A stretch of 31,955 nt of DNA from a virus. The DNA lies in the IMG/VR virus record IMGVR_UViG_3300011116_001201, positions 1 to 31,955 of that record. The stretch is one strand, 5' to 3'. Position numbers and translations under genes: made by a program. The notes beneath the pieces are model-generated. The model was not told where the DNA came from. It did no database searches and saw only the letters and a list, made by a program, of their open reading frames with translations. Shown here piece by piece: positions 4,831 through 31,591 of the stretch; positions within the stretch are counted from its first letter, which is position 1; each line of letters opens with the position of its first letter.

Positions 4831-4854
4831 AATCCTTAACTTGATTGGCTCTAA

Positions 4855-4862: not shown

Positions 4863-4890
4863 AAAAAATAGGAGTGGTTTAAACCACTCC
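4862..4890 (-). terminator. Intrinsic terminator after the protease gene
   Basis: A perfect 20-base palindrome GGAGTGGTTTAAACCACTCC (4871-4890) is followed on the minus strand by TATTTTTTTA. It lies 31 bases after the stop of the gene ending at 4922 and separates it from the endonuclease gene. Confidence 0.85.
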
Positions 4891-4921
4891 AACCTGAAAA
4901 GACGCCAATCAAGTTCAGGTA

Positions 4922-5446: not shown

Positions 5447-5475
5447 TCAGATTTCCTTGGATTCTTACATATTAT

Positions 5476-5502
5476 AAAACCCCCTGGTGAGATTCCAGAG
5501 GG
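5476..5502 (-). terminator. Intrinsic terminator after the S74 fibre gene
   Basis: On the minus strand CCCTCTGG (5502-5495), a 7-base loop and CCAGGGGG (5487-5480) form an 8-bp stem with one T-G wobble, followed by TTTTATAAT. It lies 25 bases beyond the stop of the fibre gene ending at 5527. Confidence 0.85.
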
Positions 5503-5526
5503 TAAGTGGTCAGTTTGTGAAGTGGT

Positions 5527-6894: not shown

Positions 6895-6935
6895 TTTTTT
6901 ATCAAAAGTCTCCTATTTGTATATTTAGGTTATTT

Positions 6936-7646
6936 TTAAGTCAGAACTCCAAAATCTTCAGTTTGAATTGAACCTGATGGAGTATTTAATAAATCATAAG
7001 AAGTAAAATCAGAAATAACTTGACCAAAAGAATCAGTATCACCAGAAGTAAATCCACCATAATCACCTATTGGAAAATCAGAAGATCCAGTATCAGCATA
7101 ATTTTTTGTAGATGCATCAGTTGCTGCCGATGGTTCAGCAAGATTAGTAATCTTATTTGATCCCATATTGAGACCGGTTGTGCTTATTGTGGCAATAAGA
7201 CTATTGTTTAAAATAAATTTAATTGAATCACTAGTAATAAAAACACTATTATTTTGAGAAGATAATCCAGTTGCAACACCAACAACATTGCCAACAAATC
7301 CTCCAGTTGAAGTAATAATTCCAGTTGAATTTATATTATGAGAATTTATATTACCACTTCCCAAATTTAATCCAGAAGAATGTAAAAATGATTCACCAAT
7401 TTTAAATCCAGTCGTATCAATTGTTGTAGCAGATCCAACAAGAACAATATTCTCAGTTCCATTGAGAGTAAGGGAACTTGTACCAACCGTTAAAATACCA
7501 GTAACTCTTACATCACCAGAAACATTTAAGTTTCCACCAACATCAAGTTTTGCTATTGGATTTGTGGTTCCAATACCAATATTTCTGGTTTCATCATTAA
7601 CAATTAATAATGACGCAAGTTGTGATAATTCTCTGGTATTGGCCAT
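6936..7646 (-). CDS. Fibre-like virion protein sharing the N-terminus of the giant fibre, 236 aa
   Basis: The start (MANTRELSQLASLLIVNDET, then IGIGTTNPIAKLDV) matches that of the 1876-aa protein encoded just before it (MAFNRDLSQLANFLEINSDG, then LGIGTNNPTAKLDV). The following block (GILTVGTSSLTLNGTENIVL, then GSATTIDTTGF and SGLNLGSGNINSHNINSTGI) is also paralogous to an internal block of the giant fibre. The C-terminus is unique and lacks an S74 chaperone. It is therefore a short paralogue built from the same attachment domain with a different tip. A CATAAATA late motif and a terminator of the upstream gene precede it. Confidence 0.85.
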   Translation of the reverse strand: MANTRELSQLASLLIVNDETRNIGIGTTNPIAKLDVGGNLNVSGDVRVTGILTVGTSSLTLNGTENIVLVGSATTIDTTGFKIGESFLHSSGLNLGSGNINSHNINSTGIITSTGGFVGNVVGVATGLSSQNNSVFITSDSIKFILNNSLIATISTTGLNMGSNKITNLAEPSAATDASTKNYADTGSSDFPIGDYGGFTSGDTDSFGQVISDFTSYDLLNTPSGSIQTEDFGVLT

Positions 7647-7668
7647 TAACTATGTTTTTCCTATGTCT

Positions 7669-7676
7669 TATTTATG
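7669..7676 (-). promoter_or_regulatory. Late promoter motif CATAAATA
   Basis: The minus strand reads CATAAATA directly after the T-run of the hairpin terminator, 23 bases before the ATG of the 236-aa fibre-like gene. Confidence 0.65.
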
Positions 7677-7705
7677 AAAAAAGGAGGAAGATTTCTCTTC
7701 CTCCT
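7677..7705 (-). terminator. Intrinsic terminator after the giant fibre gene
   Basis: A perfect 10-bp stem AGGAGGAAGA / TCTTCCTCCT (7705-7696 with 7691-7682) with a four-base loop is followed by Ts on the minus strand (7681-7677). It lies 22 bases past the stop at 7728. Confidence 0.9.
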
Positions 7706-7727
7706 CTAAATTTAATTTGGACTCAAA

Positions 7728-18408: not shown

Positions 18409-18416
18409 TATTTATC
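18409..18416 (-). promoter_or_regulatory. Late promoter motif GATAAATA over a stop codon
   Basis: The minus strand reads TTGATAAATA: the TGA stop of the DUF6165-like gene overlaps the motif by two bases, 15 bases before the ATG at 18394. Confidence 0.65.
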
Positions 18417-18774
18417 AATATAACTTTATCTCTTGATAAATTGATTGAGTTTCTTCGTTGATTTCTTTTTTGATTTGTGCTCTTAAGTCATTGGTGATAT
18501 AAACACTTCTTGCAAGTTCTATAAACTCTTGATCAAACCTTTGTTCTTTTTCTAAAACTCTCAAGTCATCTTCAATCTTCCAAAGTTTTTGATTTACTTG
18601 AAATAATTTTGTAAGATAAGAATTATTATAAACTTGGTGTTCCTTTGCGATTTGGATGAGGTCTTGGAGTTCTTTTAAGACATATTGATTGTTTGTGTAT
18701 TGAGACTTGATTGAGAGTATAGAAATCTTATCTAATAGTTCTCCTGTTGATATTGGTATAGTTATTTCAATCAT
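18415..18774 (-). CDS. DUF6165-like protein, copy B, 119 aa
   Basis: The pattern ISTGELLDKISILSIKSQYT ... YVLKELQDLIQIAKEHQ matches my memory of the DUF6165 signature ('VSIGELLDKITILEIK'). The rest is helical and charged (KLWKIEDDLRVLEKEQRFDQ). It is closely similar along its whole length to the gene encoded about 900 bases upstream (copy A), so one of the two is a duplicate. DUF6165 proteins often sit near glycan or sulfate modification genes; no biochemical function is known to me. The ATG overlaps the P4H-like gene by 8 bases. Confidence 0.75.
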   Translation of the reverse strand: MIEITIPISTGELLDKISILSIKSQYTNNQYVLKELQDLIQIAKEHQVYNNSYLTKLFQVNQKLWKIEDDLRVLEKEQRFDQEFIELARSVYITNDLRAQIKKEINEETQSIYQEIKLY

Positions 18775-19447
18775 AATTCAAGTTATTATTTTTTGATTCA
18801 TTCTTTATTTCACTCAAGTCTGGAAATGTAGATACTCCTTGAGGTTCTGGTGTATTTAAAAACTCAATCCATCCAGTTGCAATATATTTAACTCCAGATA
18901 GTGGTGGATTTCCTCTATGTGTGTGTGTGAAATGTGCAGGAAAAAGAATAAAAGTTCCTGTTTTTGGTTTAATTCTTAATGATTGATATAAAAATTCAGT
19001 TTCACCACCTTCTTCTACATCATTTAAATACAGAGTCCAAACTAAAATTCTATCTCTATTATCAGGTAATGCACCGTGTTCACAATGCCAAACGTGATAT
19101 CCTTGGGTTGGGCAGGTTTTTTGTATTTTAATATATTTTGATTTGTGTTTTTGTAAAGATTGTAAAATTTGATATTGATTATTATATATTGGATAAATGT
19201 AATCATAAAATTTTTTATGAAATGAATCAATAAATCCCGGGTTCCAATCAAGTTCTATGGATGGACCAATACTTACCGAAACATCGTCATGTAAAATTAA
19301 ATTTTCTCTAGTATAAGAATAACCAGATTTATGATAATTTTCAAATAATTTTATAGTATCTTCACACTCTTTTAATGTAAATGCGTTTTCATAAATTCCA
19401 ATAAATTCTTTAAATTCATATTTAAGTTTTGATGGATTAAAAGTCAT
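18767..19447 (-). CDS. Prolyl-4-hydroxylase-like 2OG-Fe(II) oxygenase, 226 aa
   Basis: This is a P4H-type double-stranded beta-helix dioxygenase. The segments are YHVWHCEHGALPDNRDRILV (iron ligands H121 and E123, an HxE variant of HxD), WTLYLNDVEEGGETEFLYQ and IKPKTGTFILFPAHFTHTHR. The last holds a distal His, most likely H177, and Lys187 in GVKYIATGW could bind 2-oxoglutarate. Such cyanophage enzymes are proposed to hydroxylate protein prolines; the target is unknown. It directly follows the remnant oxygenase (stop 5 bases upstream) and overlaps copy B of the DUF6165-like gene. Confidence 0.88.
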   Translation of the reverse strand: MTFNPSKLKYEFKEFIGIYENAFTLKECEDTIKLFENYHKSGYSYTRENLILHDDVSVSIGPSIELDWNPGFIDSFHKKFYDYIYPIYNNQYQILQSLQKHKSKYIKIQKTCPTQGYHVWHCEHGALPDNRDRILVWTLYLNDVEEGGETEFLYQSLRIKPKTGTFILFPAHFTHTHRGNPPLSGVKYIATGWIEFLNTPEPQGVSTFPDLSEIKNESKNNNLNYD

Positions 19448-19451
19448 AATT

Positions 19452-19656
19452 TAGTTAAAGTTGATTGCACAATGAGTGATGTCTGTTGATGTTACTGAAT
19501 GATGTTACTGAATGATGTTACTGAATGATGTTTTATAGACCCATCAAAAAGTAACATACGATTTTCTACACATTGTACTTCAGTAGTATCCTTAAGCACA
19601 GTAAATTCATTAAAGGTTGTTACATAAAATAATACAACTCTATGAGTTTCTTTTCT
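19452..19656 (-). pseudogene. C-terminal remnant of a 2OG-Fe(II) oxygenase, frameshifted
   Basis: Translation gives RKETHRVVLFYVTTFNEFTV, then LKDTTEVQCVENRMLLFDGS and IKHHSVTS. This aligns with residues about 112-160 of the intact oxygenase at 23079-23636 (RKIPHQVALFYVTTNNGFTV ... CVENRMITFDGSIYHHSVTS). The remnant begins in frame immediately after the TAA of DUF6165-like copy A. The N-terminal half with the HxD iron site is missing. At HHSVTS a 13-bp tandem repeat adds 26 bases and shifts the frame to a stop. Removing two repeat units restores STDITHCAINFN and a stop at 19452, matching STNSVRCVININ of the intact copy. Confidence 0.88.
19488..19533. repeat. 13-bp tandem repeat, 3.5 copies
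   Basis: TGATGTTACTGAA occurs three times in direct succession (19488, 19501, 19514), followed by seven bases of a fourth copy. The homologous place in the intact paralogue has one copy, so two units were added here, a gain of 26 bases that breaks the frame. Confidence 0.95.
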
Positions 19657-20016
19657 TTATTTATGAACCTTTATTTCCTGATAGGATGAATTATATTTCT
19701 CATTGATTTCTTTTTTGATGCTTGCTCTTAAGTCATTTATTTTATAAACACTTCTTGCAAGTTCTATAAACTCTTCATCAAACATTTGTTCTTTTTCTAA
19801 AACTCTTAAGTCATCTTCAATTTTCCAGAGTTTTTGATTTACTTGAAATAATTTTGTAAGGTAAGAATCATTATAAACTTGATGTTTCTTTGCGATTTCT
19901 ATGAAGTCTTGGAGTTCTTTTGTCACATAAGAGTTGTCTGTGTATTGGGATTTGATTGAGAGTATAGAAATCTTATCTAATAGATCTCCTATTGATATTG
20001 GTGTGGTTATTTTCAT
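19657..20016 (-). CDS. DUF6165-like protein, copy A, 119 aa
   Basis: It is nearly collinear with copy B: ISIGDLLDKISILSIKSQYT, HQVYNDSYLTKLFQVNQKLW and KIEDDLRVLEKEQMFDEEFI. It differs mainly in the N-terminal three residues and the tail (SSYQEIKVHK against SIYQEIKLY). It overlaps the cupin-like gene by 4 bases. Because the oxygenase remnant starts right after its stop codon, the duplication or deletion junction probably lies at this point. Function unknown, as for copy B. Confidence 0.75.
   Translation of the reverse strand: MKITTPISIGDLLDKISILSIKSQYTDNSYVTKELQDFIEIAKKHQVYNDSYLTKLFQVNQKLWKIEDDLRVLEKEQMFDEEFIELARSVYKINDLRASIKKEINEKYNSSYQEIKVHK
19658..19665 (-). promoter_or_regulatory. Late promoter motif CATAAATA over a stop codon
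   Basis: The last codons of copy A (His-Lys-stop, CAT AAA TAA) spell CATAAATA. It is in the same position relative to copy A as the GATAAATA motif is to copy B, and would drive the remnant and the P4H-like gene. Confidence 0.5.
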
Positions 20017-20516
20017 GAGTAAATTAATTTTTTATTCTCATTCTCATTTAAATAATCTAAACCAAATGATATTCCAACTCTTGGAGATAAAGGAATAACA
20101 TCATGAAAAATTCCTCTGGGAACATAGATAATATCTCCAGGTTCTAAAATATAAGATATATTTTCATTGGATTCAAAAATTTTCCATTGCGTTGATCCTA
20201 TACATTGCCAATACCAAACATCAAATTTATCTTTATGTCTACCAAATGTTTTACTTTTCTTTGATAAACTTATGTATACATGATGAGAATAATTATTATT
20301 TGGATTATTATTTTTTATTTCATTTAAAATAAATTCAACCTCCTCTATGTTGAAAATGTCATGAAGTACAATTCCGCCACCAGGAAGAGATTTTGTTGAT
20401 ATTTTATATTGGATATTTAAATCTATATTTGATATTATTTTTTTCCAATCAGGAACTCTAGTTAAAAATTTTTTAATATATTTGTGAGACGAAGAGGAAT
20501 TGAATATGTTATCCAT
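20013..20516 (-). CDS. JmjC/cupin-4-like oxygenase, 167 aa
   Basis: The frame is open from a TTG at 20549, but the ATG at 20516 is preferred because it overlaps the stop of a small upstream frame. From that ATG, FGRHKDKFDVWYWQCIGSTQ gives the iron site H94-x-D96. The segment YILEPGDIIYVPRGIFHDVI supplies the distal H138 in the 'GD.lYvPrG..H' signature of JmjC/cupin-4 hydroxylases (RoxA-, FIH-type). The family hydroxylates protein side chains such as Arg, His or Asn. At 167 residues it is smaller than usual and lacks the extra C-terminal dimerisation region. It overlaps DUF6165-like copy A by 4 bases. Confidence 0.8.
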   Translation of the reverse strand: MDNIFNSSSSHKYIKKFLTRVPDWKKIISNIDLNIQYKISTKSLPGGGIVLHDIFNIEEVEFILNEIKNNNPNNNYSHHVYISLSKKSKTFGRHKDKFDVWYWQCIGSTQWKIFESNENISYILEPGDIIYVPRGIFHDVIPLSPRVGISFGLDYLNENENKKLIYS

Positions 20517-20655
20517 AATTAAAGTTTTTACTGAAGTTAATTTTTCCAAATTTATTAACTATCTCATAATCTGCATTAAATGTTTGTCTTATTCCTTTAG
20601 TTTGAGCATATATACCGTAAATTATCCAATTTTGACCATTTTGATATATTTTCAT
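20509..20655 (-). CDS. Short frame, 48 aa, possible halogenase remnant
   Basis: The frame encodes MKIYQNGQNWIIYGIYAQTK, then GIRQTFNADYEIVNKFGKINFS. Its stop overlaps the ATG of the cupin-like gene (ATGGATAA). It has coding-like composition but no Shine-Dalgarno and no motif that I recognise. It lies just past the broken halogenase, so it could be a leftover of its C-terminus, an independent small gene or chance. I do not assign a function. Confidence 0.4.
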   Translation of the reverse strand: MKIYQNGQNWIIYGIYAQTKGIRQTFNADYEIVNKFGKINFSKNFNYG

Positions 20656-20710
20656 AATTAAAAATTTTATTAATAATTGTAATTAATTTTATTTTTAGTT
20701 AAAGACTAGT

Positions 20711-21055
20711 CTAAGTAATATATTTATATCCATAAACTCCATAATATTCTCCATATTTTTCAGTATATTGAAATGAAATATTGTGCATGAAATTATTTTT
20801 TGCCCAATTTTCAAAAAAAACTCCAACTTTAAAAGTAGCATTACACTTTAAAATTGATTCTAAACTATTAATCCCCACGAAAGAACAGAATTCTGACCAA
20901 TGTTCAGTTGAACTTTCTCCCACCCCAACAATACCAATATCATTAGATTCCACTATCTTAATTTTTTTATGTGGAAATGCTGTTTTTAGCATTAGAGCAG
21001 ATATGCATCCAGATGTTCCACCTCCAAGAATTATTATGTCATTAATAGCATTCAT
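20711..21055 (-). pseudogene. Truncated flavin-dependent (tryptophan-type) halogenase
   Basis: This is the N-terminal start of a flavin-dependent halogenase. IIILGGGTSGCISALMLKTA is the FAD-binding GxGxxG variant (residues 11-16). GIVGVGESSTEHWSEF matches the family's GEST-like motif, and ATFKVGVFFENW holds Lys76 at the place of the essential active-site lysine. Family members are about 500 residues long, but this frame stops after 114 with YGVYGYKYIT. The WxWxIP motif and the rest of the substrate domain are absent. It is therefore probably inactive, cut by a deletion. Confidence 0.85.
20721..20728 (-). promoter_or_regulatory. Possible late motif TATAAATA in the halogenase end
   Basis: TATAAATA overlaps the codons for Tyr-Lys-Tyr four codons before the halogenase stop. 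It lies 66 bases upstream of the 48-aa frame. It could be a late promoter, or chance in AT-rich coding sequence. Confidence 0.35.
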
Positions 21056-21079
21056 ATTTGATATTAAAAAAATTATATA

Positions 21080-21637
21080 TTATTTAACTGGTATTTTTAT
21101 ATCTTTGGCACCGTGATAATCTACAATTAAATGAATCCTATCTTTTTTACTATTATTATTCACAGAATGAAGTTTACTATTATCAATTTCCCACATTTCG
21201 CCAACTTTCATATTTTTTTCCTCACCATTTACGGAAAAAATAACATCTTTATTTGTTATTATTGGAATATGAACTCTTCTTGGAATCAATAAAGATTTTC
21301 CACCATCTTCATGAGGAGGTATAGATTTTTTTATTTTTAATTTAGTAATTAAAATCCTTAAAATTTCACCATCTCCGTAAAAATTATACAATTTTTCAAT
21401 TAAAATTTTTGAAAATTCAGTAGAATTAAATTTTGAAAAATGTTTTCTTTGATTAGCAACTTTTAATCTACCAAGAGAATCCCAATCCCATAAAATTGGA
21501 ATTGTTTCAGTATCGGCATGTGCTTTTGCAATTCTCTGTCTAATTGATTCTTCTTTCCATTCATAGTGCGTTAAATCACTAACAAATTCTATTATTTCCT
21601 CTACATCTATTGTACCAATAAAAATATAATTTTTCAT
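21080..21637 (-). CDS. Aspartyl/asparaginyl beta-hydroxylase-like protein, 185 aa
   Basis: The sequence PPHEDGGKSLLIPRRVHIPI ... TNKDVIFSVNGEEKNMKVGE ... MWEIDNSKLHSVNNNSKKDR ... IHLIVDYH is the signature of the AspH-type (Asp_Arg_Hydrox) fold. H109-x-D111 and H157 are the likely iron ligands, and R167 would bind 2-oxoglutarate. Known members hydroxylate Asp/Asn side chains or lipid A acyl chains (LpxO). The bacterial and phage members are diverse, so the substrate cannot be told. The gene lies 6 bases past the stop of the next oxygenase and precedes the broken halogenase. Confidence 0.85.
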   Translation of the reverse strand: MKNYIFIGTIDVEEIIEFVSDLTHYEWKEESIRQRIAKAHADTETIPILWDWDSLGRLKVANQRKHFSKFNSTEFSKILIEKLYNFYGDGEILRILITKLKIKKSIPPHEDGGKSLLIPRRVHIPIITNKDVIFSVNGEEKNMKVGEMWEIDNSKLHSVNNNSKKDRIHLIVDYHGAKDIKIPVK

Positions 21638-21643
21638 ATTATT

Positions 21644-22291
21644 TTAATGCGGATTATACGATACAAAATTTTTTTTACCTTCTAATATTAAAGAATTATA
21701 TGGAGTATCTAAATGTGCAGTAATTGCAAAAGTTAACCTCCAAAAATATTTTATAGGTGCAAGAGCTTGATGTGCATATAAACTAGGAAAAATTAAAAGT
21801 TTATTTTTTTTATATTTACATCTATAAAATGGCACACTATCCTCAAAATTGTTAAAAATTATTGTATCACCATCACTCTCATTTACATAAAAAATAAAAG
21901 TCCAAGCAGTATCATTTAATGAATCATCAATATGAATTTTTGGATGGTTAGATGGAGTTTGTCCATTTAATGCAATTCGTTGCAATTTAATTAATTTTGA
22001 ATTTTTATTGATTAATTTTGCTCCATTACAAATTACATAATTTAAAATATAATTTACTGCCGCAGGAACATTATCAATATTATATCCATTCACAAATCTG
22101 TCAAAAAAATAAACTTCTCCAAAAAATTTTTTATCATCAAAATTAGTCCCAGTTGCAGTATGTCCGTATTTTAAATTGCAATTTTCAAAGGATTGATTAA
22201 TAAACCAAGAAGTATATTCATCAAAAATATTTTCATATTCAAAAATAAGTTTTTTCTTTGATTCAACTTTAATATATTTGAAATCTTCCAT
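21644..22291 (-). CDS. 2OG-Fe(II) oxygenase, 215 aa
   Basis: Residues NHPKIHIDDSLNDTAWTFIF give the HxD site (H120, D122). YVNESDGDTIIFNN is the usual beta-strand core with GD, LLIFPSLYAHQAL supplies the distal H174, and FWRLTFAI supplies R185 for 2-oxoglutarate. The general layout is P4H/PKHD-like, but no specific subfamily can be named. AGGAAATAAAATG gives a good ribosome-binding site. It starts one base after the stop of the methyltransferase gene, implying co-translation. Confidence 0.83.
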   Translation of the reverse strand: MEDFKYIKVESKKKLIFEYENIFDEYTSWFINQSFENCNLKYGHTATGTNFDDKKFFGEVYFFDRFVNGYNIDNVPAAVNYILNYVICNGAKLINKNSKLIKLQRIALNGQTPSNHPKIHIDDSLNDTAWTFIFYVNESDGDTIIFNNFEDSVPFYRCKYKKNKLLIFPSLYAHQALAPIKYFWRLTFAITAHLDTPYNSLILEGKKNFVSYNPH

Positions 22292-22292
22292 T

Positions 22293-23027
22293 TTATTTCC
22301 TAATAAAACAAAATATTTTTTGATCTAAAGGATGATTCCAGTCACCAATATAATCACATTTCCAAAATTTATTAATAGATGGATCTTTAAATATTAATTC
22401 TATTTGTGTTTTTTTGTAGTGATAAGTATCAGATATATGGGATGTTAAAATTTGATTGTTCCACAAAAAAGTATCACATAAATTAGATTCTTCTGGAATT
22501 AACCAAAAAGTTACAAAAAATTTTGATTCTGATTTAAAATAATCCTTTAGTTTTAGCAAACAAAAATAAAGATGATTTAATGGTAAATGAGTAAAAACTG
22601 ATTGAGATATGGCCATATCAAATTTAATGTCTTCTTGAAAATCAAGAGTAAAATCTTCACTAATAGAAAAATTTTTTGTATTAACTTTATCTTGTAATTT
22701 GTATTTTGGAATTTCTTTTTCTAATCCCATTTTTAGCAAATATGAATTTATATCCAATCCATAATAATTATCTTTATTAAGAAAATCAATTAATTTAACT
22801 CCAGCTCTCAAACAACCACATCCAACATCTAAAAATTTGTGTTCAGGAATCAATCCTTGAGAAATTAAGAATTTTTTTTGCAAATTTCCTTGTATTTCCC
22901 AAATACCACCAACCCAAGTTTTATAATTAACAAATTCTTCTTTATCAGGTGGAGGAATTTGATAATAAGAATTCATTGGAGCATATGGATAATCAAAATT
23001 TTCAATTATTTTTAATTTATCATTCAT
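22293..23027 (-). CDS. Class I SAM-dependent methyltransferase, 244 aa
   Basis: Motif I is clear: KFLDVGCGCLRAGVKLIDFL (residues about 64-83), then YYGLDIN with the acidic residue that binds the ribose. FDMAISQSVFTHLPLNHLYF is motif IV-like. The pattern 'G..Q..FLI.QGL.P.HKFLDVGCGCLRAG' is typical of small-molecule or glycan O-/N-methyltransferases found next to glycosylation genes. The substrate is unknown. A TATAAATA late motif lies 38 bases upstream of the ATG. Confidence 0.85.
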   Translation of the reverse strand: MNDKLKIIENFDYPYAPMNSYYQIPPPDKEEFVNYKTWVGGIWEIQGNLQKKFLISQGLIPEHKFLDVGCGCLRAGVKLIDFLNKDNYYGLDINSYLLKMGLEKEIPKYKLQDKVNTKNFSISEDFTLDFQEDIKFDMAISQSVFTHLPLNHLYFCLLKLKDYFKSESKFFVTFWLIPEESNLCDTFLWNNQILTSHISDTYHYKKTQIELIFKDPSINKFWKCDYIGDWNHPLDQKIFCFIRK

Positions 23028-23064
23028 ATTTTTCTAGTTTTTTTATCAATTTTAAGTAACTTAT

Positions 23065-23072
23065 TATTTATA
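23065..23072 (-). promoter_or_regulatory. Late promoter motif TATAAATA
   Basis: An exact TATAAATA in the intergenic gap, 7 bases past the stop at 23079 and 38 bases before the methyltransferase ATG. Confidence 0.65.
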
Positions 23073-23078
23073 TTTGTG

Positions 23079-23636
23079 TCAAGAGTAAAAATATTTTGTA
23101 TTACCCAATTTTATCGAAGGAATGTAATTAATATTAATTACACATCTAACACTATTTGTTGAAGTTACTGAATGATGATAAATTGATCCATCAAAAGTAA
23201 TCATTCTATTTTCAACACATTCAATATCAATTAAATTATTTAAAACAGTAAATCCATTATTTGTTGTTACATAAAATAATGCAACTTGATGTGGTATTTT
23301 TCTATCTACATGGTCTTCATGATGTATATAAGACTCTGTTGGAACTAATAGATTTGCTCTTGCATCAATAATTTTATTTACATTTAATTTATCAAAGATT
23401 GGTAAAATTAAATAAAAAAATTCACTTTTCTTTTTTGTTTCTGATGATATAAAGGAATGAGAATACATCCAATCATGCTCTTCGTATCCTGTTGGGCCCA
23501 ATTTTGGGTCTCTTACAATACCTTTATTATAATTCCAAGGAAGTTTTTCAGAGTTTTCATTTTCTGGAAAGAATGTAGATTTAATTTTATCAAAATCTTT
23601 TTGATTAAGAAAATTATCTATGATTTGATGAGTCAT
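23079..23636 (-). CDS. 2OG-Fe(II) oxygenase, 185 aa, intact paralogue of the remnant
   Basis: The iron site is in ESYIHHEDHVDRKIPHQVAL (H106, D108) and the distal His in DGSIYHHSVTST (H154 or H155). R164 in VRCVININYIP would bind 2-oxoglutarate. The conserved 'Y.H.D...D..........FYVT....G.T' and 'NR...FDG...H.V' blocks are typical of small oxygenases in cyanophage islands. Its C-terminal part is the intact counterpart of the frameshifted remnant at 19452-19656 and shows one copy of the repeat expanded there. Confidence 0.85.
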   Translation of the reverse strand: MTHQIIDNFLNQKDFDKIKSTFFPENENSEKLPWNYNKGIVRDPKLGPTGYEEHDWMYSHSFISSETKKKSEFFYLILPIFDKLNVNKIIDARANLLVPTESYIHHEDHVDRKIPHQVALFYVTTNNGFTVLNNLIDIECVENRMITFDGSIYHHSVTSTNSVRCVININYIPSIKLGNTKYFYS

Positions 23637-23670
23637 TGATATGAAATATTATTTTTTTAGTTTTATCATA

Positions 23671-24246
23671 TCAACAACCCCAGGCAACGCCAGAATATCT
23701 TATATTTTCTGTGACTTCTTCTATTCTGTGAGGAAATAAAAATAAGGAAGGAAATACAACTACATCACCTTCTCCTAAATCGACTTTATAATCATCCCAA
23801 AAAATTAAATCACCACCTTTATAATCATCATTAAAGTTTATAATAATACTTAAAACAGGTATTCCTTTCACTTCACCCTCAAAAAAATTTTTGATGTGGT
23901 CACAATGTATTCTCATAGTTTGACCTTTTTGATATCTATTAAATCTAACAGGAGAAAAACAAGTCACTTGTGACACTTTTTCGCTTCCAATAAAGTAATT
24001 ATAAGATTTTACTGAAAGACATATTAAAGGATGTAGAATATCCCCTAAAGATGATGTAGCCTCTAAAACATCAAGTTCTTTTGTTGGGTAACTAAAGGAC
24101 TCATTTTTAGTATTAGACCATGAATGACTACTCCATGATTTATTTTTGATAGAATCAATCACAAACCTACAAGTATCTTTTGGTATTAACTCTCTTTCTA
24201 TATGAATAAAGTTTTTTAGTTGTAAGTTTTTAATATTATTATTCAT
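23671..24246 (-). CDS. PKHD/PiuC-like 2OG-Fe(II) hydroxylase, 191 aa
   Basis: RYQKGQTMRIHCDHIKNFFE holds H114-x-D116. PVLSIIINFNDDYKGGDLIF and WDDYKVDLGEGDVVVFPSLF are the classic 'LNDDYEGGEL' and 'G....FPS' blocks, and FLFPHRIEEVTENIRYSGVA supplies H173 and R183. This is close in layout to PKHD-type hydroxylases (PiuC family), which are common in cyanophages. Target unknown. It overlaps the glycosyltransferase gene before it by 8 bases, so hydroxylation and glycosyl transfer are expressed together. Confidence 0.88.
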   Translation of the reverse strand: MNNNIKNLQLKNFIHIERELIPKDTCRFVIDSIKNKSWSSHSWSNTKNESFSYPTKELDVLEATSSLGDILHPLICLSVKSYNYFIGSEKVSQVTCFSPVRFNRYQKGQTMRIHCDHIKNFFEGEVKGIPVLSIIINFNDDYKGGDLIFWDDYKVDLGEGDVVVFPSLFLFPHRIEEVTENIRYSGVAWGC

Positions 24247-25000
24247 AATTTAATTTAAAATCTTTACGAATCTCATCATAATTTATATTAATAACTTCTT
24301 TCCAATTCACAAAGGGTGAAATGTGATTTGCATTGCAATGAGTTGAGTATCCTGGTAAACAAGATATCACATATTTATTTTGCTCTTGACTTAATTTCCA
24401 AAACTTATCATAATCTTTTGAAAAATGAAATCCATCTTTTTCCTTTATACCATTAACTGAAGATTCTTTATGTATTTCATAGTCTTCTAAAAGTGTTGAA
24501 TACTTACATGCAAAGGTATTGGTAGTTGCAGGAACTGCTCTCCAATGAGTGCTTTGTGTTGTAAAAAGTTTATAAAAACTACTGTCATTCAAAAAGAAAT
24601 TAAAATCATAAAGAGTTACATATGAAGGATTTAAAGTAAATCCCTCTAGTAATATTTTACACCATTCTGGACGATGTGCATAGTCATCTTCTAAAAAGTA
24701 GATGATTGTATCTGGTGAATAGTTTTGAGAAACTGCATAATCCATTGTTGTGATAAAACTTTCACACTCACTTCCACAATTGATAATTTTTACATTTTTT
24801 TCTTCTTTAAGAAATGTATCATTAATGCTACCATAGTGCTCATCATAAACAATATGATAATCTGCAAGTTTGGAATCTATCGTATTCTTAAAGTTTTGAA
24901 ATACTTTGTACTTATTAAACCAAAAAGGTCTTGTGCGATCTGGAAGTTCTTGCAATTTTGAGTAGTAGCAGTGTCTTAAAAAAACTTGAATTGATTTCAT
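24239..25000 (-). CDS. GT-A type glycosyltransferase, 253 aa
   Basis: YSPDTIIYFLEDDYAHRPEW carries the acidic EDD cluster (104-106) that would bind the metal and nucleotide sugar. THWRAVPATTNTFACKYSTL resembles the acceptor region of a glycosyltransferase family seen in cyanobacteria and phages ('FLEDDY.HRP.W...L.EG....VTLYD'). An N-terminal segment (IQVFLRHCYYS) looks like a GT-A first strand. The sugar donor and acceptor are unknown. The ATG overlaps the TGA of the preceding oxygenase (ATGA). Confidence 0.75.
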   Translation of the reverse strand: MKSIQVFLRHCYYSKLQELPDRTRPFWFNKYKVFQNFKNTIDSKLADYHIVYDEHYGSINDTFLKEEKNVKIINCGSECESFITTMDYAVSQNYSPDTIIYFLEDDYAHRPEWCKILLEGFTLNPSYVTLYDFNFFLNDSSFYKLFTTQSTHWRAVPATTNTFACKYSTLLEDYEIHKESSVNGIKEKDGFHFSKDYDKFWKLSQEQNKYVISCLPGYSTHCNANHISPFVNWKEVININYDEIRKDFKLNYE

Positions 25001-25638
25001 TTATATAAAATTGAATTAGAATTGATAATATTTTTTTTTGATATGTCATTTTCTTCATTTACAATGCTAAATGTAACTATACTATATCTAGTTGATTTTT
25101 CATCATTTACTATTATTGGTGTTACTCCGTGTAATTCTTTAGAAAAAAATAATATCCCACAATTATTGTTACACTTATGAAGATAATCGTATTCTGGAAA
25201 AAATAAATCTCCCCCTTTAAAATTTGAAGTATTATCCCATAAAAAAAATATTAAAGAAAATATTCCACTATCTGTATGTGGTTTATAATAATCATTTTTT
25301 TTGTAACAATTTACAAGTTCGCCTCCCCACATTAAAGAATTAAATAATCTTTTAAATGCAAGGTTTTTCCAATTATTATCGGTGCTTATTTTTTTTATGC
25401 ATTTGTCTATAATTTTGATTGTCTTTAAATTTTCGTAAGTTTCACTTTCAGATAAAAACATACCAGTGTTTTTTTTTAAAATTTTTGAGTGTGTGCTTGC
25501 AGATCCAGTGAAATTTGGATCTTTAAAATTTTTTTTTAATTCATTAATTTCTTTAAAAATTATTTTTAACTCTTCTGCAGAAAAAATATTTTCTAAAAAG
25601 ATATTAAAAAAAGGATTGTCTTTATAAATTATTTTCAT
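24997..25638 (-). CDS. 2OG-Fe(II) oxygenase, 213 aa
   Basis: DYYKPHTDSGIFSLIFFLWD gives H121-x-D123, FKGGDLFFPEYDY is the GGDL core, and ILFFSKELHGVTPIIV gives H170. R184 in STRYSIVTFSIV is the 2-oxoglutarate arginine. The layout matches the P4H-like family. It is very lysine- and asparagine-rich, reflecting the AT-rich island. It is coupled to the glycosyltransferase by an ATGA overlap. Confidence 0.85.
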   Translation of the reverse strand: MKIIYKDNPFFNIFLENIFSAEELKIIFKEINELKKNFKDPNFTGSASTHSKILKKNTGMFLSESETYENLKTIKIIDKCIKKISTDNNWKNLAFKRLFNSLMWGGELVNCYKKNDYYKPHTDSGIFSLIFFLWDNTSNFKGGDLFFPEYDYLHKCNNNCGILFFSKELHGVTPIIVNDEKSTRYSIVTFSIVNEENDISKKNIINSNSILYK

Positions 25639-25656
25639 TTTAAAGTAATATTAATA

Positions 25657-26304
25657 TTAATAATAATTAAGTATTTGTTTCATTTCAATTAAAGGGCAAT
25701 ATAATGATTGGTTTACTATATATTTACAATTTTCAGGAACATTTGTTTCATATTCTTGAAAATCAACATTTTTCAAATAATTTTTTAAAGTGTGAGCCCA
25801 TTCAATCTTATAGTTTTTTATATCTTTTTTGTTTAATGCACAATAAAAAGAAAATCTTGAATAATCTTTTAAATTATTTTTCATTTTTTTAATAAAATCA
25901 ATATTTCTACAAGGAGTTGAGGAGTCAACTTTACAAAGTTCTAAAGTTTCAATGTCATAATCATCAAAAAATATACAATCAAATTTTGATAAAGTTTGGT
26001 AAATGTTTTCCCATTTTTCAAAAATAATATTGATTGTATGATTATAATTTTCTTTCCATTTCAATACTTTTTGATGCGCATTTCCATCACATTCAACAAT
26101 TGTATAAGAATTAATTGGGAACTTTTGTATTTCAGTTGCAGAATATCCAAGACCAAATCCGATTTCAAGAACGTCTCCAAATGGTTGAAGTTTTTGAATA
26201 CATGCTTCCATATAAGGTTTTTCCCATTCCATCATAATTTGATGTTTTTTTTTGGGATCTAAAATGATATCTTTGTCATTTTCATCTTTTGTTATTATGT
26301 TCAC
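25657..26304 (-). CDS. SAM methyltransferase resembling guanidinoacetate/Arg-type family, 215 aa
   Basis: MEWEKPYMEACIQKLQPFGD, VLEIGFGLGYSATEIQ (motif I, residues about 45-60), TIVECDG (acidic SAM-ribose residue) and FDCIFFDDYD make up the layout of GAMT/RMT2-like methyltransferases. The family methylates amino or guanidino groups, but the target here is unknown. The start is a GTG (26304-26302) overlapping the TAG of the glycosyltransferase by one base (TAGTG). The next in-frame ATG is 23 residues in and would remove a conserved-looking region, so GTG is preferred. Confidence 0.8.
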   Translation of the reverse strand: MNIITKDENDKDIILDPKKKHQIMMEWEKPYMEACIQKLQPFGDVLEIGFGLGYSATEIQKFPINSYTIVECDGNAHQKVLKWKENYNHTINIIFEKWENIYQTLSKFDCIFFDDYDIETLELCKVDSSTPCRNIDFIKKMKNNLKDYSRFSFYCALNKKDIKNYKIEWAHTLKNYLKNVDFQEYETNVPENCKYIVNQSLYCPLIEMKQILNYY

Positions 26305-27230
26305 TACAAAACCTTTTCAATATCCTCTTTGATTTTTTCATAAATATCCAAAATCTCACTTTCAGTATATTCAATACATTCTTTGTTTAGTCTTTCTGCA
26401 AGATTAGATTGAAAACTAGAGATTCTCATTGGAGAATAAACTGGTTGTTTTCTTTGAATAATTCTAAAGTAATCGGGGTATGACATATTAACTGCGTCAG
26501 TGCCTCCCATTATCACACATCCTTGAGTTCCTGTTGCTCTTGCAATATGTTGACCAACTGTATCACAACCAACGAAATAATCGACTTGAGCAATCACTCC
26601 CATCCAGTCTCTCATATGAAGGTCTGGTTGAGGCACATAAACGACTTTATTATCTTCAGGAAGAAGATGTGAATAACCCATGTAGATGATGTTGTAATCC
26701 TCTGCAAGCAACTCACAAAGTTGAATAAACATATTCTCTGGTAATGACCTTAAAGAGTCGTCGTAGACTCCCAGATGGCAGGTTTGTGCAGTAGATCCAT
26801 AAGGGTTAATAACTATTGTTTTTTCTTTCTTCTGTGCTTCGTATGCTCTATAGATGGTTTCTTGACCTTTACGAATCTCTGAATGAGAAAGATTTAAAGT
26901 TTGATAGTTTAAGTCATCGTGATCTTCAGTTTCGTTAATGATTTCATCAAATGCTTCTGCAAGTGATATTTTACCTTTATAAAAATTTGGAAGACGATAA
27001 GGCTCTGGTGAAACTATTACATCTGTCTTGAGAAATATATTTTCCCAAACACTTTTTGTATCTGGATTAAAAGACCTTTCTTGAAGTTCTGGAATGCCTA
27101 ATGGAATATAATCCCATCCCATAATTGAGACATACCATTCTTCGTTGAGGTGATTTTGATGATATTTGAGAAGTGCTGGAAGTGCAGTAATAACTCTTCC
27201 TATTCCGCCGTCAATGTTGATGATTTTCAT
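26304..27230 (-). CDS. GT9-like (heptosyltransferase-type) glycosyltransferase, 308 aa
   Basis: The N-terminus KIINIDGGIGRVITALPALL is the glycine-rich loop of GT-B enzymes. The C-terminal half has VDYFVGCDTVGQHIARATGT followed by CVIMGGTDAVNMSYPDY, the 'D..VG.D....H...A.G...V...G' signature of ADP-heptose:LPS heptosyltransferase-like GT9 proteins. A membrane helix is absent, so it is cytosolic. Donor and acceptor unknown. It ends in a 1-base overlap with the methyltransferase. Base composition is less AT-rich than its neighbours, so it may have a different origin. Confidence 0.78.
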   Translation of the reverse strand: MKIINIDGGIGRVITALPALLKYHQNHLNEEWYVSIMGWDYIPLGIPELQERSFNPDTKSVWENIFLKTDVIVSPEPYRLPNFYKGKISLAEAFDEIINETEDHDDLNYQTLNLSHSEIRKGQETIYRAYEAQKKEKTIVINPYGSTAQTCHLGVYDDSLRSLPENMFIQLCELLAEDYNIIYMGYSHLLPEDNKVVYVPQPDLHMRDWMGVIAQVDYFVGCDTVGQHIARATGTQGCVIMGGTDAVNMSYPDYFRIIQRKQPVYSPMRISSFQSNLAERLNKECIEYTESEILDIYEKIKEDIEKVL

Positions 27231-27274
27231 TAGGTAATAAATTAATGTAAGATTTAAAAAAAAAATTGTATATT

Positions 27275-27814
27275 TTATATATATTCCTTATGAATAAAAG
27301 TATGATTAAAAGTATTGTTATCGATTTCTAAATTAAAAGATGCAATTAGTCTAGGAACATGAAATTCATTTACTGGAACATAATGCATTATGTTTGATGG
27401 GAAAAAAATTATTTCACCTTCTTTGACTGGAATATAATTTTTTCCATACTGTGTAGTTATAGAATCAATAAAAGGAGATATAAAAATAGTTGGTTTATGA
27501 CATTCTTCATCATACTCAATAAAACATACTGAAGAAAATCCCGCAGCTCCATGTTCATGGACACAATGTTGCATATTTTTTTCATATTTTTGAAACCAAA
27601 ATCCATGCAAAATAAAAAATAGTCCGGATTCTTTTTCAAATGTTTTTATTTCTTCATCTAAAATAGATATCTTAGTGTATATTGGGGATGTTAAAACTTC
27701 TCCTGCTTTTTTTGTTTCACAATTATCGAATAAATTTAATAATTTTTGTTTCTTTTGCTCCCAATTATTTACATTATATTTGTAAATTGGAATTGAAAAA
27801 AGTGTTTCTTTCAT
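27275..27814 (-). CDS. 2OG-FeII_Oxy_5-type oxygenase, 179 aa
   Basis: HGFWFQKYEKNMQHCVHEHG then AAGFSSVCFIEYDE gives H86-x-H88 in place of the usual HxD. EGEIIFFPSNIMHYVPVN supplies the distal H144, and VPRLIASFNLEI supplies R155. This follows the 'W...Y.....H.H......GV.Y' layout of the 2OG-FeII_Oxy_5 family, frequent in cyanophages. Whether the H-x-H set binds iron in the usual way is not clear from sequence alone. A TATAAATA motif in the end of the preceding gene lies 43 bases upstream. Confidence 0.8.
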   Translation of the reverse strand: MKETLFSIPIYKYNVNNWEQKKQKLLNLFDNCETKKAGEVLTSPIYTKISILDEEIKTFEKESGLFFILHGFWFQKYEKNMQHCVHEHGAAGFSSVCFIEYDEECHKPTIFISPFIDSITTQYGKNYIPVKEGEIIFFPSNIMHYVPVNEFHVPRLIASFNLEIDNNTFNHTFIHKEYI

Positions 27815-27827
27815 AAGTATTCTGAAA

Positions 27828-28391
27828 TCATATATAAAATATTATATTTTTTTTTATATTTATACATCTCCATTGAAATGTAATTCTATCTTCCACTGCA
27901 TCTGGAGATATCATTGATACTGCATGAGAATTCTTATCATCATTATTTTCAGACATATTGACTACCATAGAATTAAATTTTGGCTCTATGCCCTTTATTT
28001 CTGAGGTTTCATTATCCTTCCATAAAAAAATTCCACCATAATTTAAATTCCAATTTTCATTCAAATAAATTGTTCCATTATAATCCCATCCATGATCATT
28101 ATGCCAAGTTATGTATGAAAGTCTTCCCCATATATAAACAGCTAATCTAAAATCCAAATTTAATTTTTCAAAATTTAAATTTATTTTTTGTTCAATTTGT
28201 TTTTTTACAGAATTAAAAAATATTTCATTTTTTGAAATTGGATGAGTTAAGACTATAGATGAAGAATTAACTAAACGAGAATCCCACTCTAAATTTGATG
28301 ACCAAACATCATTTTTTATAGAATTCTTGATATATAAATTTACTATACTTAAAGTATTTTCATCTAAAATATTTGAATATTTTTTAATCAT
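27828..28391 (-). CDS. 2OG-Fe(II) oxygenase, 187 aa
   Basis: LSYITWHNDHGWDYNGTIYL gives H97-x-D99, NLNYGGIFLWKDN is the GG core, KNSHAVSMISPDAVEDRITF gives H156 and R169. The pattern 'W..DH...Y..T.YLN..W....GG.F.W' fits the small rebB-like/prolyl hydroxylase group of phage oxygenases, though no exact subfamily can be named. The C-terminal codons contain a TATAAATA motif that may act as promoter for the next gene. Confidence 0.83.
   Translation of the reverse strand: MIKKYSNILDENTLSIVNLYIKNSIKNDVWSSNLEWDSRLVNSSSIVLTHPISKNEIFFNSVKKQIEQKINLNFEKLNLDFRLAVYIWGRLSYITWHNDHGWDYNGTIYLNENWNLNYGGIFLWKDNETSEIKGIEPKFNSMVVNMSENNDDKNSHAVSMISPDAVEDRITFQWRCINIKKNIIFYI
27857..27864 (-). promoter_or_regulatory. 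Possible late motif TATAAATA
   Basis: Within the last codons of the preceding oxygenase and 43 bases before the next ATG. Position fits a late promoter, but chance occurrence in AT-rich coding sequence cannot be excluded. Confidence 0.4.
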
Positions 28392-28421
28392 AAAATAAAT
28401 TTATTACTTTTAATTATACAA

Positions 28422-29030
28422 TTATACATTTGATTCTTTTTGTTTTGGAAACATTATTACATTAAATGAGATAGAAATTCTATTGTCATCATGATCATTT
28501 GTCTCTACAGAATGTGGTAAGTATGATGGCCAAAGTAAGATTTCACCCTCTATTGGTTCAATTTTAACTAAACTTGAAGTAAATTCATTTTTTGTGGAAA
28601 AGAGTTTGGAACCAATCCACATCGTATTCATTGCTAGATTGCGAATACATAGTTTTCCACTTTTTTCTGGGGCTTTTAAGTAAAAAACTCCACTAAAAAC
28701 ATCTCCGTGAGTGTGTTCTGTGTGCATTGCCTGTCTAGAGTCATTATAGTTTGCCCAAGATTCTGTAATAAAAGTTTCTCTATCAATGAATTGCAATTCA
28801 TCAGCAGCATTATTTGCAAATTCATAGATAAAAGTGAAAAGAGATTCTAATTCTTTTTTTGAATGTAAACAATTTTCTGTTTGGTTACCACCTACATTTG
28901 AAATATTTATGGAGTCTGGGTAATCTTGTTTATATTCTTCTATTGCTTTCAGAATCAATTCTTTTTCTTCTTCAAATTTTGGATAAGTTTCTTGCCAAAA
29001 TGGAACTGAATACATAGAAATCATAGTCAT
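28422..29030 (-). CDS. 2OG-FeII_Oxy_5-type oxygenase, 202 aa
   Basis: ESWANYNDSRQAMHTEHTHG then DVFSGVFYLKAPEKSGKLCI is the hallmark of the 2OG-FeII_Oxy_5 family ('W......D....H.H....SGV.Y'). The iron ligands are likely among H106, H108 and D110. GEILLWPSYLPHSVETN supplies the distal H173, and R184 lies in NRISISFNV. An upstream TATAAATA motif overlaps the stop of the sulfotransferase. Its sequence is clearly distinct from the other Oxy_5-type gene of the island, so the two are not recent duplicates. Confidence 0.87.
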   Translation of the reverse strand: MTMISMYSVPFWQETYPKFEEEKELILKAIEEYKQDYPDSINISNVGGNQTENCLHSKKELESLFTFIYEFANNAADELQFIDRETFITESWANYNDSRQAMHTEHTHGDVFSGVFYLKAPEKSGKLCIRNLAMNTMWIGSKLFSTKNEFTSSLVKIEPIEGEILLWPSYLPHSVETNDHDDNRISISFNVIMFPKQKESNV

Positions 29031-29049: not shown

Positions 29050-29856
29050 CTATTTATACGAAGGTTTAAAATATTTATTTTCTTTCCAAAATTCCAATTT
29101 CATATCTTTATAATAATTAAAAACTTCTTTTGGTAGGATAATTTTTTCTTTTTCGTAAAAAATTTGTTTTTTTACTGTATGTAAATTTTTAGTGTTACAA
29201 TTTAAATCAACTAATTCATTAGAATAATTCAAATTATTAAAATCATGCTCAAAATAAGGTTGTTTCAAAAAATTATAGATTTCTTTCATGGTTTTTTTGG
29301 GAAATCTACATAAAGTTTCATAATTTACAAAATATATCATATTTGGATTATATGAATATCCATCAACTAATCCATGATAGGATGTAGAAACTATTCCATC
29401 TTCTTTATTCATTAAATATTCGCAACGAGAAAAAGATGTCAAATAATCCTTTCCATCGAAAATACTAGAAATATAAAAAGAATTTTTTTTAGTAATTTTT
29501 TCAAATGAGTTTAATACTGAAGGTATATCTCTTACGCAACAAAGTATTTTTGTGTATGGAAATAATGATACTAAAAAGTCGGTGTAATATGTCCAAATCC
29601 TTGATGTATCAAAAATTATATTTGAATCAATATGTGAATAGTATCCCTCAAATAATCCAAATATAGTTTGTTTTCTCCTATTTTCATCAATATTCAATCT
29701 ATTAATAGTTCTTGATAATAAAGAAATTGATGATCTAGAAACTTCACATAATGGTGATGAAATATCTGCGTAAAAATTTTTATTTTGGTTAAGTATAGAA
29801 CTTAATAAAGTACTTCCACTTCTGGGTAGACCCGAAATAAAATAATATGTTTTCAT
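29050..29856 (-). CDS. Sulfotransferase family protein, 268 aa
   Basis: The start YYFISGLPRSGSTLLSSILN holds the PAPS 5'-phosphosulfate loop (GLPRSGST, residues 9-16). ILCCVRDIPSVLNSFEK holds R109 and S117 at the place of the 3'-phosphate-binding motif. The family transfers sulfate from PAPS to hydroxyl or amino groups of glycans, lipids or small molecules. The acceptor is unknown; a hydroxyl made by a neighbouring oxygenase, or a sugar, would be chemically suitable. It is the first enzyme gene of the island in transcription order, following the Cys-rich protein gene. Confidence 0.88.
   Translation of the reverse strand: MKTYYFISGLPRSGSTLLSSILNQNKNFYADISSPLCEVSRSSISLLSRTINRLNIDENRRKQTIFGLFEGYYSHIDSNIIFDTSRIWTYYTDFLVSLFPYTKILCCVRDIPSVLNSFEKITKKNSFYISSIFDGKDYLTSFSRCEYLMNKEDGIVSTSYHGLVDGYSYNPNMIYFVNYETLCRFPKKTMKEIYNFLKQPYFEHDFNNLNYSNELVDLNCNTKNLHTVKKQIFYEKEKIILPKEVFNYYKDMKLEFWKENKYFKPSYK
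29051..29058 (-). promoter_or_regulatory. Late promoter motif TATAAATA over a stop codon
   Basis: The last codons of the sulfotransferase (Tyr-Lys-stop, TAT AAA TAG) spell TATAAATA, 20 bases before the ATG of the next oxygenase gene. Confidence 0.65.
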
Positions 29857-29885: not shown

Positions 29886-30629
29886 TTATGTTGTTCTAAA
29901 TGACCTTACTTTATATCCACTATCTTTTCTGGAACCACCGTCAGTATTAAAACGGTTATTAGACATATCAAATCTATAAGCAGTAACACTTCCGTATTGT
30001 GGATTATTCCATTCATCATTTGACCAATAAGTAGAACCACCAGAGTTCCAATAAGTACGGCAAGCATATCCAGGATTTGAAAGATAACTATTACCGGGAA
30101 CAAACCAACCACCTACTCCCATAACCCCTGAAGCGCAACTGTTTGCATTTCCTCTACTATACCAATCTGAAGTTATTTCTGCAGCCAAGCTTGGAACCCA
30201 CCATTTAGTAAGTCCACTGCCTTGATCACAAATTAAAAATCCATTACAATCAATTGTTCCTCCAGAAATAGTTCCGTTTGCCGCACAAAATCCAGTTTGA
30301 GCCCCAGTGGCACAGGTAGAAAAACATCCCCAGGCACATCTGGTTGCTGCTTCGTATTGCTCACCTGCTTTCCACATTCCAGAGGGCAATGCACGAGTAC
30401 ATACTGTACATGAGCAACAACAACAACATGCACAACAAGGACAAGTTGCTGGATGACATCTACATCCAAGACAATAACTTACTATACTGCCTGCACCACA
30501 AAGACTAGATATACATGTGCAACATTGAGTTGTGGTAATTCCAAGAGTTGCTGTGAGTGTAGGTCCGATTACACTTGCATTTCCTGGATATGCTCTTTTA
30601 TTAAGATTTGCTGGGCGAAATGGGGGCAT
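29886..30629 (-). CDS. Cysteine-rich virion-type protein with Lcl/DUF1566-like C-terminus, 247 aa
   Basis: The start MPPFRPANLNKRAYPGNASV leads into an extraordinary block, residues 36-77, with 17 cysteines in 42 residues, including CPCCACCCCCSC. Eight more cysteines follow (25 in total). The C-terminal part (WWVPSLAAEITSDWYSRGNA ... TYWSNDEWN ... SVTAYRFDMSN ... SGYKVRSFRTT) matches the layout of Lcl/DUF1566 domains, a lectin-like fold found on tail fibres and cell-surface adhesins. It has no signal peptide. The likely role is a virion-exposed, metal- or disulfide-stabilised tip or adhesin, but this is inference. AGGTG lies before the ATG. Confidence 0.75.
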   Translation of the reverse strand: MPPFRPANLNKRAYPGNASVIGPTLTATLGITTTQCCTCISSLCGAGSIVSYCLGCRCHPATCPCCACCCCCSCTVCTRALPSGMWKAGEQYEAATRCAWGCFSTCATGAQTGFCAANGTISGGTIDCNGFLICDQGSGLTKWWVPSLAAEITSDWYSRGNANSCASGVMGVGGWFVPGNSYLSNPGYACRTYWNSGGSTYWSNDEWNNPQYGSVTAYRFDMSNNRFNTDGGSRKDSGYKVRSFRTT

Positions 30630-30638: not shown

Positions 30639-31202
30639 CTATGTTGTTAGGTTTTCTAATTTTTCTTCTAATACTGCAATTCTATTGAAGAGTATGTCAA
30701 TCATGTTTTCCATTGCAGGAATTTTTGTAGACATTCTTTCTTGAGGTCCTCTTTTTTGATCAAAATCATTATCTGAACGACCTTCTGGACTTTGTGGCCA
30801 AATTATTTCCTTTGGATTTGGAAATTTATCTGGCAGATCTCTTAGTCTCTGGCGGTACATAAACCATTCATTATAAAACAAATTTTCTGGAGAATCTACA
30901 AGACATGCCCAATCACTTTCTTTAAGTAAAAGATTTCTTTTTTCTTTAGCTACTTGCCAAAGTTCTTCATCGGATTTATCTTTTACATCATATCTTACTT
31001 TTTCTAAATTCCAACTTTTGGTTTGATATTCTATATTAATACTTGGATTTTCATGAGGGCCTGTGAATCCTGCATCATTCAGTTCTTCTTCTGTAAAAGT
31101 AGATGCATCAGTACGACTTCTTCCATCACTCAAAGAAATTCTTTCAGGAAGTCTTTGTGGTTCTTGTCCTTGATAGGAGTAGAGTGCGTTTAGATCTGTC
31201 AT
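30639..31202 (-). CDS. Tail-fibre assembly/tail chaperone-like protein, 187 aa
   Basis: The middle of the protein (LLLKESDWACLVDSPENLFY, then NEWFMYRQRLRDLPDKFPNP) carries the 'SDW......W..YR..LR.lp' signature of small phage tail-fibre assembly or tail chaperone proteins (XkdW-like). The C-terminus (MENMIDILFNRIAVLEEKLE) is a probable coiled coil. Such proteins usually act as chaperones that help fibre or tip proteins to fold and attach. It is encoded 9 bases before the Cys-rich adhesin-like gene, its likely client. Confidence 0.78.
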   Translation of the reverse strand: MTDLNALYSYQGQEPQRLPERISLSDGRSRTDASTFTEEELNDAGFTGPHENPSINIEYQTKSWNLEKVRYDVKDKSDEELWQVAKEKRNLLLKESDWACLVDSPENLFYNEWFMYRQRLRDLPDKFPNPKEIIWPQSPEGRSDNDFDQKRGPQERMSTKIPAMENMIDILFNRIAVLEEKLENLTT

Positions 31203-31219: not shown

Positions 31220-31591
31220 TTAAGAAATTTCTTCGTATGAAATCATTACATCCAGGTCACCATTAGCAGATGCAAGGACTTTTATAGATTTATCTTCTTC
31301 TAGATAAAAAGCAGATGATTTATCAACCAATACAAGTGACGAATCTGCTGGTACTGCAATGGTATGTGCTAGTTTATATGAAGTACCACTACCAGCAGCA
31401 TTAGTGTTAATTGAAACTGTAATGTCTGCAGAGATAGTACCATCAACGTTTGCAATGGTAATAGTATTAATCTTAAATACTTTACCACTACTTGCGGAAT
31501 TTGCCAACAAAACTGTATCACTTGTAGTGACATTTGCGTAGAAAGTTTTTGCGGTGATTGTTGCTACACTTACAACGTTTGGAGCGGCCAT
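31220..31591 (-). CDS. Small beta-rich virion protein, 123 aa
   Basis: The product (AAPNVVSVATITAKTFYANV, then TTSDTVLLANSASSGKVFKI and a C-terminal LVDKSSAFYLEEDKSIKVLA) is beta-rich and Ser/Thr/Ala-rich, like the 113-aa virion protein in the fibre block. No enzyme motif. AAGGA 9 bases before the ATG and an AATAAATA motif upstream support an independent late transcript. The exact virion position is unknown. Confidence 0.75.
   Translation of the reverse strand: MAAPNVVSVATITAKTFYANVTTSDTVLLANSASSGKVFKINTITIANVDGTISADITVSINTNAAGSGTSYKLAHTIAVPADSSLVLVDKSSAFYLEEDKSIKVLASANGDLDVMISYEEIS

Follow-up and report, generated by a model that had tools for sequence, protein, structure and literature searches.

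A cysteine-rich protein with a predicted Lcl-type lectin-like domain, a probable tail-fiber adhesin of uncultured T4-like cyanophages

The window analyzed here comprises positions 1 to 31,955 of IMG/VR virus record IMGVR_UViG_3300011116_001201, and it contains a gene for a Cys-rich protein of 247 amino acid residues, 25 of which are Cys (Table 1). Residues 36-77, containing CPCCACCCCCSC, comprise exactly 17 Cys in 42 residues (approximately 40%), whereas the Cys frequency across the 26 other genes of the window is 0.94% (71/7589). Relative to the latter frequency, the binomial probability of at least 17 Cys in 42 residues is approximately 7e-24 and that of at least 25 Cys in 247 residues is approximately 3e-18, which confirmed the exceptional Cys density claimed in a preliminary description of this DNA. 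PHROGs, Pfam, and NCBIfam gave no match for the window's Cys-rich protein.

Table 1. Positions of the Cys-rich gene, the segments of its product, and the neighboring genes in the window
Feature	Position	Strand	Basis or remark
Cys-rich lectin-type adhesin gene (candidate)	29886..30629	(-)	Open reading frame (ORF) with ATG start; 247 aa, 25 Cys
Residues 1-34, conserved N-terminal segment MxPFRPxNxNKRxYPGNxxVxGPT	30528..30629	(-)	Alignments; putative fiber attachment
Residues 35-80, Cys block (17 Cys in residues 36-77)	30390..30527	(-)	Without counterpart in short-type members
Residues 81-123, linker	30261..30389	(-)	Largely missing in short-type members; no confident model
Residues 124-247, Lcl C-terminal-like (C-type-lectin-like) domain	29889..30260	(-)	AlphaFold2 (AF2) model and profile
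Residues 200-246, homologous to the variable region (VR) of sister-phage retroelement targets	29892..30032	(-)
Tail-fiber assembly chaperone gene	30639..31202	(-)	PF16778, E 5.6e-13; 9 bp before the Cys gene
Small conserved virion-type gene (MAAPNxxxVxTIT)	31220..31591	(-)	Two genes upstream of the Cys gene in most family contigs
Fiber-like gene, end only (cut at contig end)	31636..31953	(-)
Sulfotransferase gene	29050..29856	(-)	PF13469, E 3e-15; downstream of the Cys gene, start of the neighboring enzyme island
2-oxoglutarate (2OG)-Fe(II) oxygenase gene	28422..29030	(-)	PF13759; a relative follows the retroelement in L019, L036-L041, and L043

Using first the protein and then growing alignments as queries, we searched 2.9 million viral contigs and found relatives on 15 further contigs; one more contig was obtained with a DNA pattern of the N-terminus, the matches of which were confined to contigs of the Cys gene family. 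With near-duplicates counted once, ten distinct members were of a long type that has the Cys block (the window and, by contig label, L002, L003, L004, the L005 group, L007, L011, the L012 group, L014, and L019), and these relatives were 34-72% identical to the window protein. The search for homologues keeping the Cys spacing had been set beforehand as a test, and all ten retain the block. Seven members of a short type (two on the contig labeled both L017 and L010, two on L016, and one each on L015, L021, and L092) keep the N-terminus and the lectin-like domain but lack the block. Because of these seven members, the block is, judging from the alignments, an optional module, and one that is maintained by selection. 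C36, C56, C66, and C72 are invariant across the ten long members, in which the block has 13-17 Cys, odd or even in number; 10-15 of the 17 block Cys are conserved, compared with 8-18 of 26-29 neighboring residues. Between the window and L003 (72% identity), the ratio of nonsynonymous to synonymous substitution rates (dN/dS) was 0.23 overall, 0.14 in the block, and 0.52 in the last 51 residues, indicating that the block is under purifying selection. A corrected DNA pattern of the Cys block matched the family contigs and 14 others, and since the frame is short or interrupted in those 14, we regard them as chance matches. When 50,697 phage records were searched by tblastn with the full protein, its N-terminal 66 residues, its C-terminal part, the L004 protein, and a short-type member, zero relatives were found, and a protein scan of genome contigs gave no relative of the Cys-rich protein.

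The lectin-like Lcl/DUF1566 domain that had been noticed in the preliminary description proved to be real. In the AF2 model, residues 141-247 had a predicted local distance difference test (pLDDT) score of approximately 70-90 and residues 1-131 were mostly below 50; modeling of residues 1-125 alone gave an unusable result with a mean pLDDT of 42. The top structural match of the model in VIA-align was the Legionella Lcl C-terminal domain (8q4e_A; Z 12.5, root-mean-square deviation 2.8, 115 aligned residues, 18% identity), further matches being C-type-lectin-like proteins with Z of at most 9.1, and the sole match of the family profile among PDB sequences was also 8q4e (E 4.1e-6). These comparisons show that the C-terminal domain has a predicted Lcl-type C-type-lectin-like fold with profile support. 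Several members and the retroelement targets described below matched PF07603 with E values of 2e-3 to 2e-5, all below the gathering cut-off of 34.9 bits (25.5 bits for the best member or sister target). Because the matches are sub-threshold in the members and the window protein has none, we call residues 124-247 a putative distant relative of the PF07603 domain and not a Pfam member. Legionella Lcl is trimeric and binds sulfated glycans. It shares with the window protein the fold, detectable profile homology, and the C-terminal position of a lectin-type domain (PF07603/DUF1566) in a longer protein, but has a collagen-like stalk in place of the Cys block. In addition, the Lcl C-terminal domain has no disulfides (PMC11162425), whereas the window protein has Cys also within the domain, and the window-type gene lies in a phage tail region, unlike that of Legionella Lcl.

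The neighboring genes had been named correctly in the preliminary description, namely the chaperone gene upstream and the sulfotransferase gene downstream, the latter followed by 2OG-Fe(II) oxygenase genes. In 20 of the 21 members inspected, the gene begins 1-21 bp after a tail-fiber assembly chaperone gene, which is preceded by the MAAPN gene on most family contigs. In isolates, relatives of the flanking genes adjoin laminin-G lectins (S-SKS1) or Gly_rich_2 proteins (Bellamy and DSL-LC04). The adhesin cassette is repeated on the L016, L017, and L021 contigs, where two or three family members occur per contig (L016, positions 4746-10238; L017, 1095-4506; L021 and L013, on the same contig), mostly with a chaperone gene for each copy. 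Such paralogues on one contig may be a source of different host specificities. One of the window's structural genes shares 68% identity with a gene of Synechococcus phage S-SRM01 (Kyanoviridae); of the 120 records matched, 110 are Synechococcus, Prochlorococcus, or "Cyanophage" records. On these grounds, the virus is most likely a Kyanoviridae-like, T4-like cyanophage, presumably with (aquatic) cyanobacteria as hosts; a search of the family contigs for a major capsid gene (PF07068), by which the phages could have been typed, gave no match.

In sister phages, the lectin-like domain is associated with retroelements. Downstream of the long-type gene on L019, whose product has 32 Cys, lie an Avd gene (bAvd, E 3.5e-17; the match to the Avd model of NCBIfam was below the cut-off), a template repeat (TR), and an intact reverse transcriptase (RT) gene (RVT_1, E 2.2e-13). 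The TR (positions 9276-9408) is a 133-base near-copy of the gene's own 3' end (VR, 8582-8714), and 9 of the 21 mismatches between them are on template adenines, a weak adenine bias (Fisher P 0.04). Eight further contigs (L036-L043) have RTs 63-87% identical to the L019 RT; the element there precedes the same 2OG oxygenase gene family, the arrangement on L042 being different, and the targets combine this lectin domain with other N-termini. In these sister targets, the mismatches on template adenines amounted to 22/24 (L036), 18/19 (L038), 26/26 (L039), 28/29 (L040), and 14/18 (L042). The sister-phage elements, with Avd, a template, an RT, and mismatches nearly all on template adenines, are, by the usual criteria applied to their sequences, diversity-generating retroelements (DGRs), and the comparison of templates and targets shows the lectin domain to be what they target. 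Hypermutation of the domain in relatives suggests that it helps host recognition. Retroelements consisting of Avd, template, and RT, with Lcl-type targets at the adhesin site, were seen on cyanophage-like contigs of up to 125 kb.

DUF1566 is reported to be the most common Pfam domain among DGR targets (PMC6642488; PMC4159848 for human microbiomes). Like these systems, L019, L036, L038, L039, L040, and L042 pair a target and a template with an RT nearby, whereas the window contig is without template or related RT; the present family also differs from known DUF1566-type targets in its Cys block and its cyanophage-like tail loci. Differences between the window and L003 were not significantly concentrated in DGR-mutable columns (12/31 versus 4/14, P 0.38). 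Across the whole family, diversity was higher in DGR-mutable columns (P 0.002), a pattern that surface positions would give as well, and no active hypervariation was seen in the near-identical groups L005/L006/L008 and L012/L013. An incomplete literature search turned up neither a report of a Cys-rich adhesin in cyanophages nor one of retroelements at cyanophage loci of this kind, although some of the present contigs may be listed in the global DGR catalogue (PMC8144416).

The lectin fold, the linkage to a chaperone gene, and the laminin-G or glycine-rich proteins at the same site in isolates argue that the window protein is probably a receptor-binding tail-fiber adhesin of a T4-like cyanophage, with a Cys neck and an Lcl-type lectin-like domain. 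The adhesin with an Lcl/DUF1566 domain envisaged in the preliminary description, in which retroelement targeting had not been seen, is thus upheld by fold, profile, chaperone linkage, and genomic slot. In the mechanism that we infer, the conserved N-terminus would dock the adhesin onto the fiber, and the Cys block and linker would form a short rigid neck that keeps the lectin-like domain off the fiber. The Lcl-type domain would bind a host surface glycan, as suggested by the Lcl fold and by the lectin and glycine-rich genes at the same site in isolates, while the linkage and the gp24/gp25 pair of Pam3 suggest that the chaperone encoded upstream would fold or trimerize the adhesin. Disulfides formed by the Cys residues once the cell lyses into oxic water may lock the neck and perhaps also the trimer, a step for which the chances seem about even. 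The last approximately 45 residues would correspond, from the comparison of template and VR in the sister phages, to the part that retroelements rewrite there. S16 gp38-type glycine-rich tail-fiber adhesins are likewise encoded by a small separate gene in the distal fiber region. Gly_rich_2 proteins adjoin the MAAPN gene in Bellamy and DSL-LC04, but the present protein has a Cys block and a lectin fold instead of a polyglycine core, and no sequence relation to the gp38 type was seen. The fiber of the myocyanophage Pam3 has a receptor-binding distal part that is folded by a chaperone (PMC9608196). The window resembles it in combining a putative receptor-binding distal part with a putative dedicated chaperone, but its candidate adhesin has a small gene of its own, which follows that of the chaperone, and has an Lcl-like domain.

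Several observations weigh against a tail-fiber adhesin of this kind. No isolate-derived family member is known among the 50,697 phage records, and hence there is no virion proteomics; residues 1-123 have no confident AF2 model; PF07603 is unmatched in the window protein and below cut-off in the members; the L016 paralogue at 9693-10238 has no chaperone gene immediately upstream; in the window contig, which is a fragment, nothing matches the L019 RT and the 3' end of the gene occurs only once; and several members have an odd number of Cys in the block, contrary to what would be expected if all of them paired in intrachain disulfides. The want of an isolate and of proteomics, together with an N-terminal half lacking a confident model, would also fit a small virion decoration or host-takeover protein outside the tail fiber. 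We consider this unlikely, as the tail-fiber chaperone linkage holds in 20 of 21 members, isolates have lectin or glycine-rich proteins at the same place, and retroelements target the same domain. A frameshift or assembly artefact, named in the preliminary description as a possible refuter, could in principle yield a low-complexity Cys run from TGC/TGT repeats read in one frame, but is practically out of the question: the homologues rule it out, since all ten long members have the block in the same frame, the block has the low dN/dS given above, and contigs from many metagenomes agree in frame and spacing and show purifying selection.

As for the role of the Cys residues in the proposed adhesin, we prefer disulfides over metal, though with evenly balanced confidence, because the block has many Ser, Thr, and Pro residues, hardly any His, and few charged residues, because the lectin part and the short-type members are likewise enriched in Cys, and because fibers act outside the cell. 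Alternatively, the block may be a thiolate cluster of metallothionein type, folded around Zn, Cu, or Fe while still in the reducing cytosol, a metal neck that would stabilize the adhesin or present metal to the host. This is possible but clearly less probable. Each block has CC (1-7), CxC (3-6), and CxxC (4-9) motifs, the Cys numbers are variable and odd, and metal would allow an adhesin assembled in the cytosol to fold before lysis; on the other hand, typical metallothioneins differ from a block with little Lys and up to five consecutive Cys, the enrichment extends to the lectin domain and to members without the block, and no metallothionein profile of Pfam or NCBIfam matched the window protein. 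A marine phage tail fiber with potential iron-binding domains has been reported (PMC11705849). The suggestion in the preliminary description that the block is a substrate of the adjacent sulfotransferase or 2OG oxygenases found no support and is very unlikely. These enzyme genes adjoin the Cys gene in the window and L003, but the first gene after the Cys gene varies between contigs, and in isolates without the Cys gene, glycine-rich or other tail genes have 2OG-oxygenase or sulfotransferase genes as neighbors. Since different enzyme genes accompany the Cys gene on different contigs, modification by the neighbors is doubtful, and the sulfotransferase and enzyme island are probably functionally unconnected to the Cys block. 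We also think it improbable that the block is an active device, that is, a thiol- or metal-loaded module at the cyanophage fiber tip that would capture the host covalently or via its metal acquisition, on a retroelement-hypermutable lectin domain.

The gene is a Cys-rich variant of the already known Lcl-type phage adhesins that retroelements can diversify, and it provides a concrete candidate host-recognition protein for a group of uncultured T4-like cyanophages. Lcl-type lectins, diversified by retroelements in many systems, would serve at the same tail locus in cyanophage-like viruses, and in such an adhesin an optional stretch of more than 30% Cys has been retained by selection. How an adhesin with 25 Cys folds in a reducing cytosol is a directly testable question.

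The enzyme island of the window (18767-29030, minus strand) has many 2OG-Fe(II) oxygenase genes together with methyltransferase and glycosyltransferase-like genes, and comparable islands with a varying gene set follow the adhesin genes in related contigs. By eye, a 114-aa ORF in the island (20711-21055, minus strand) resembles the N-terminus of a flavin-dependent, tryptophan-halogenase-like enzyme; L002 has a 501-aa relative (5596-7101), and the window copy thus appears truncated. Two nearly alike 119-aa paralogues also belong to the oxygenase island (18415-18774 and 19657-20016, minus strand). Elsewhere on the minus strand, a 347-aa protein (3787-4830) has, after an HNH-like start, several repeats of approximately 20-30 residues of the kind WWNxGxKNKxxxECPGxEWxxGR, and two fiber-like proteins of 455 and 1876 aa (5527-6894 and 7728-13358) likely have, as judged by eye, a C-terminal endosialidase-type intramolecular chaperone.
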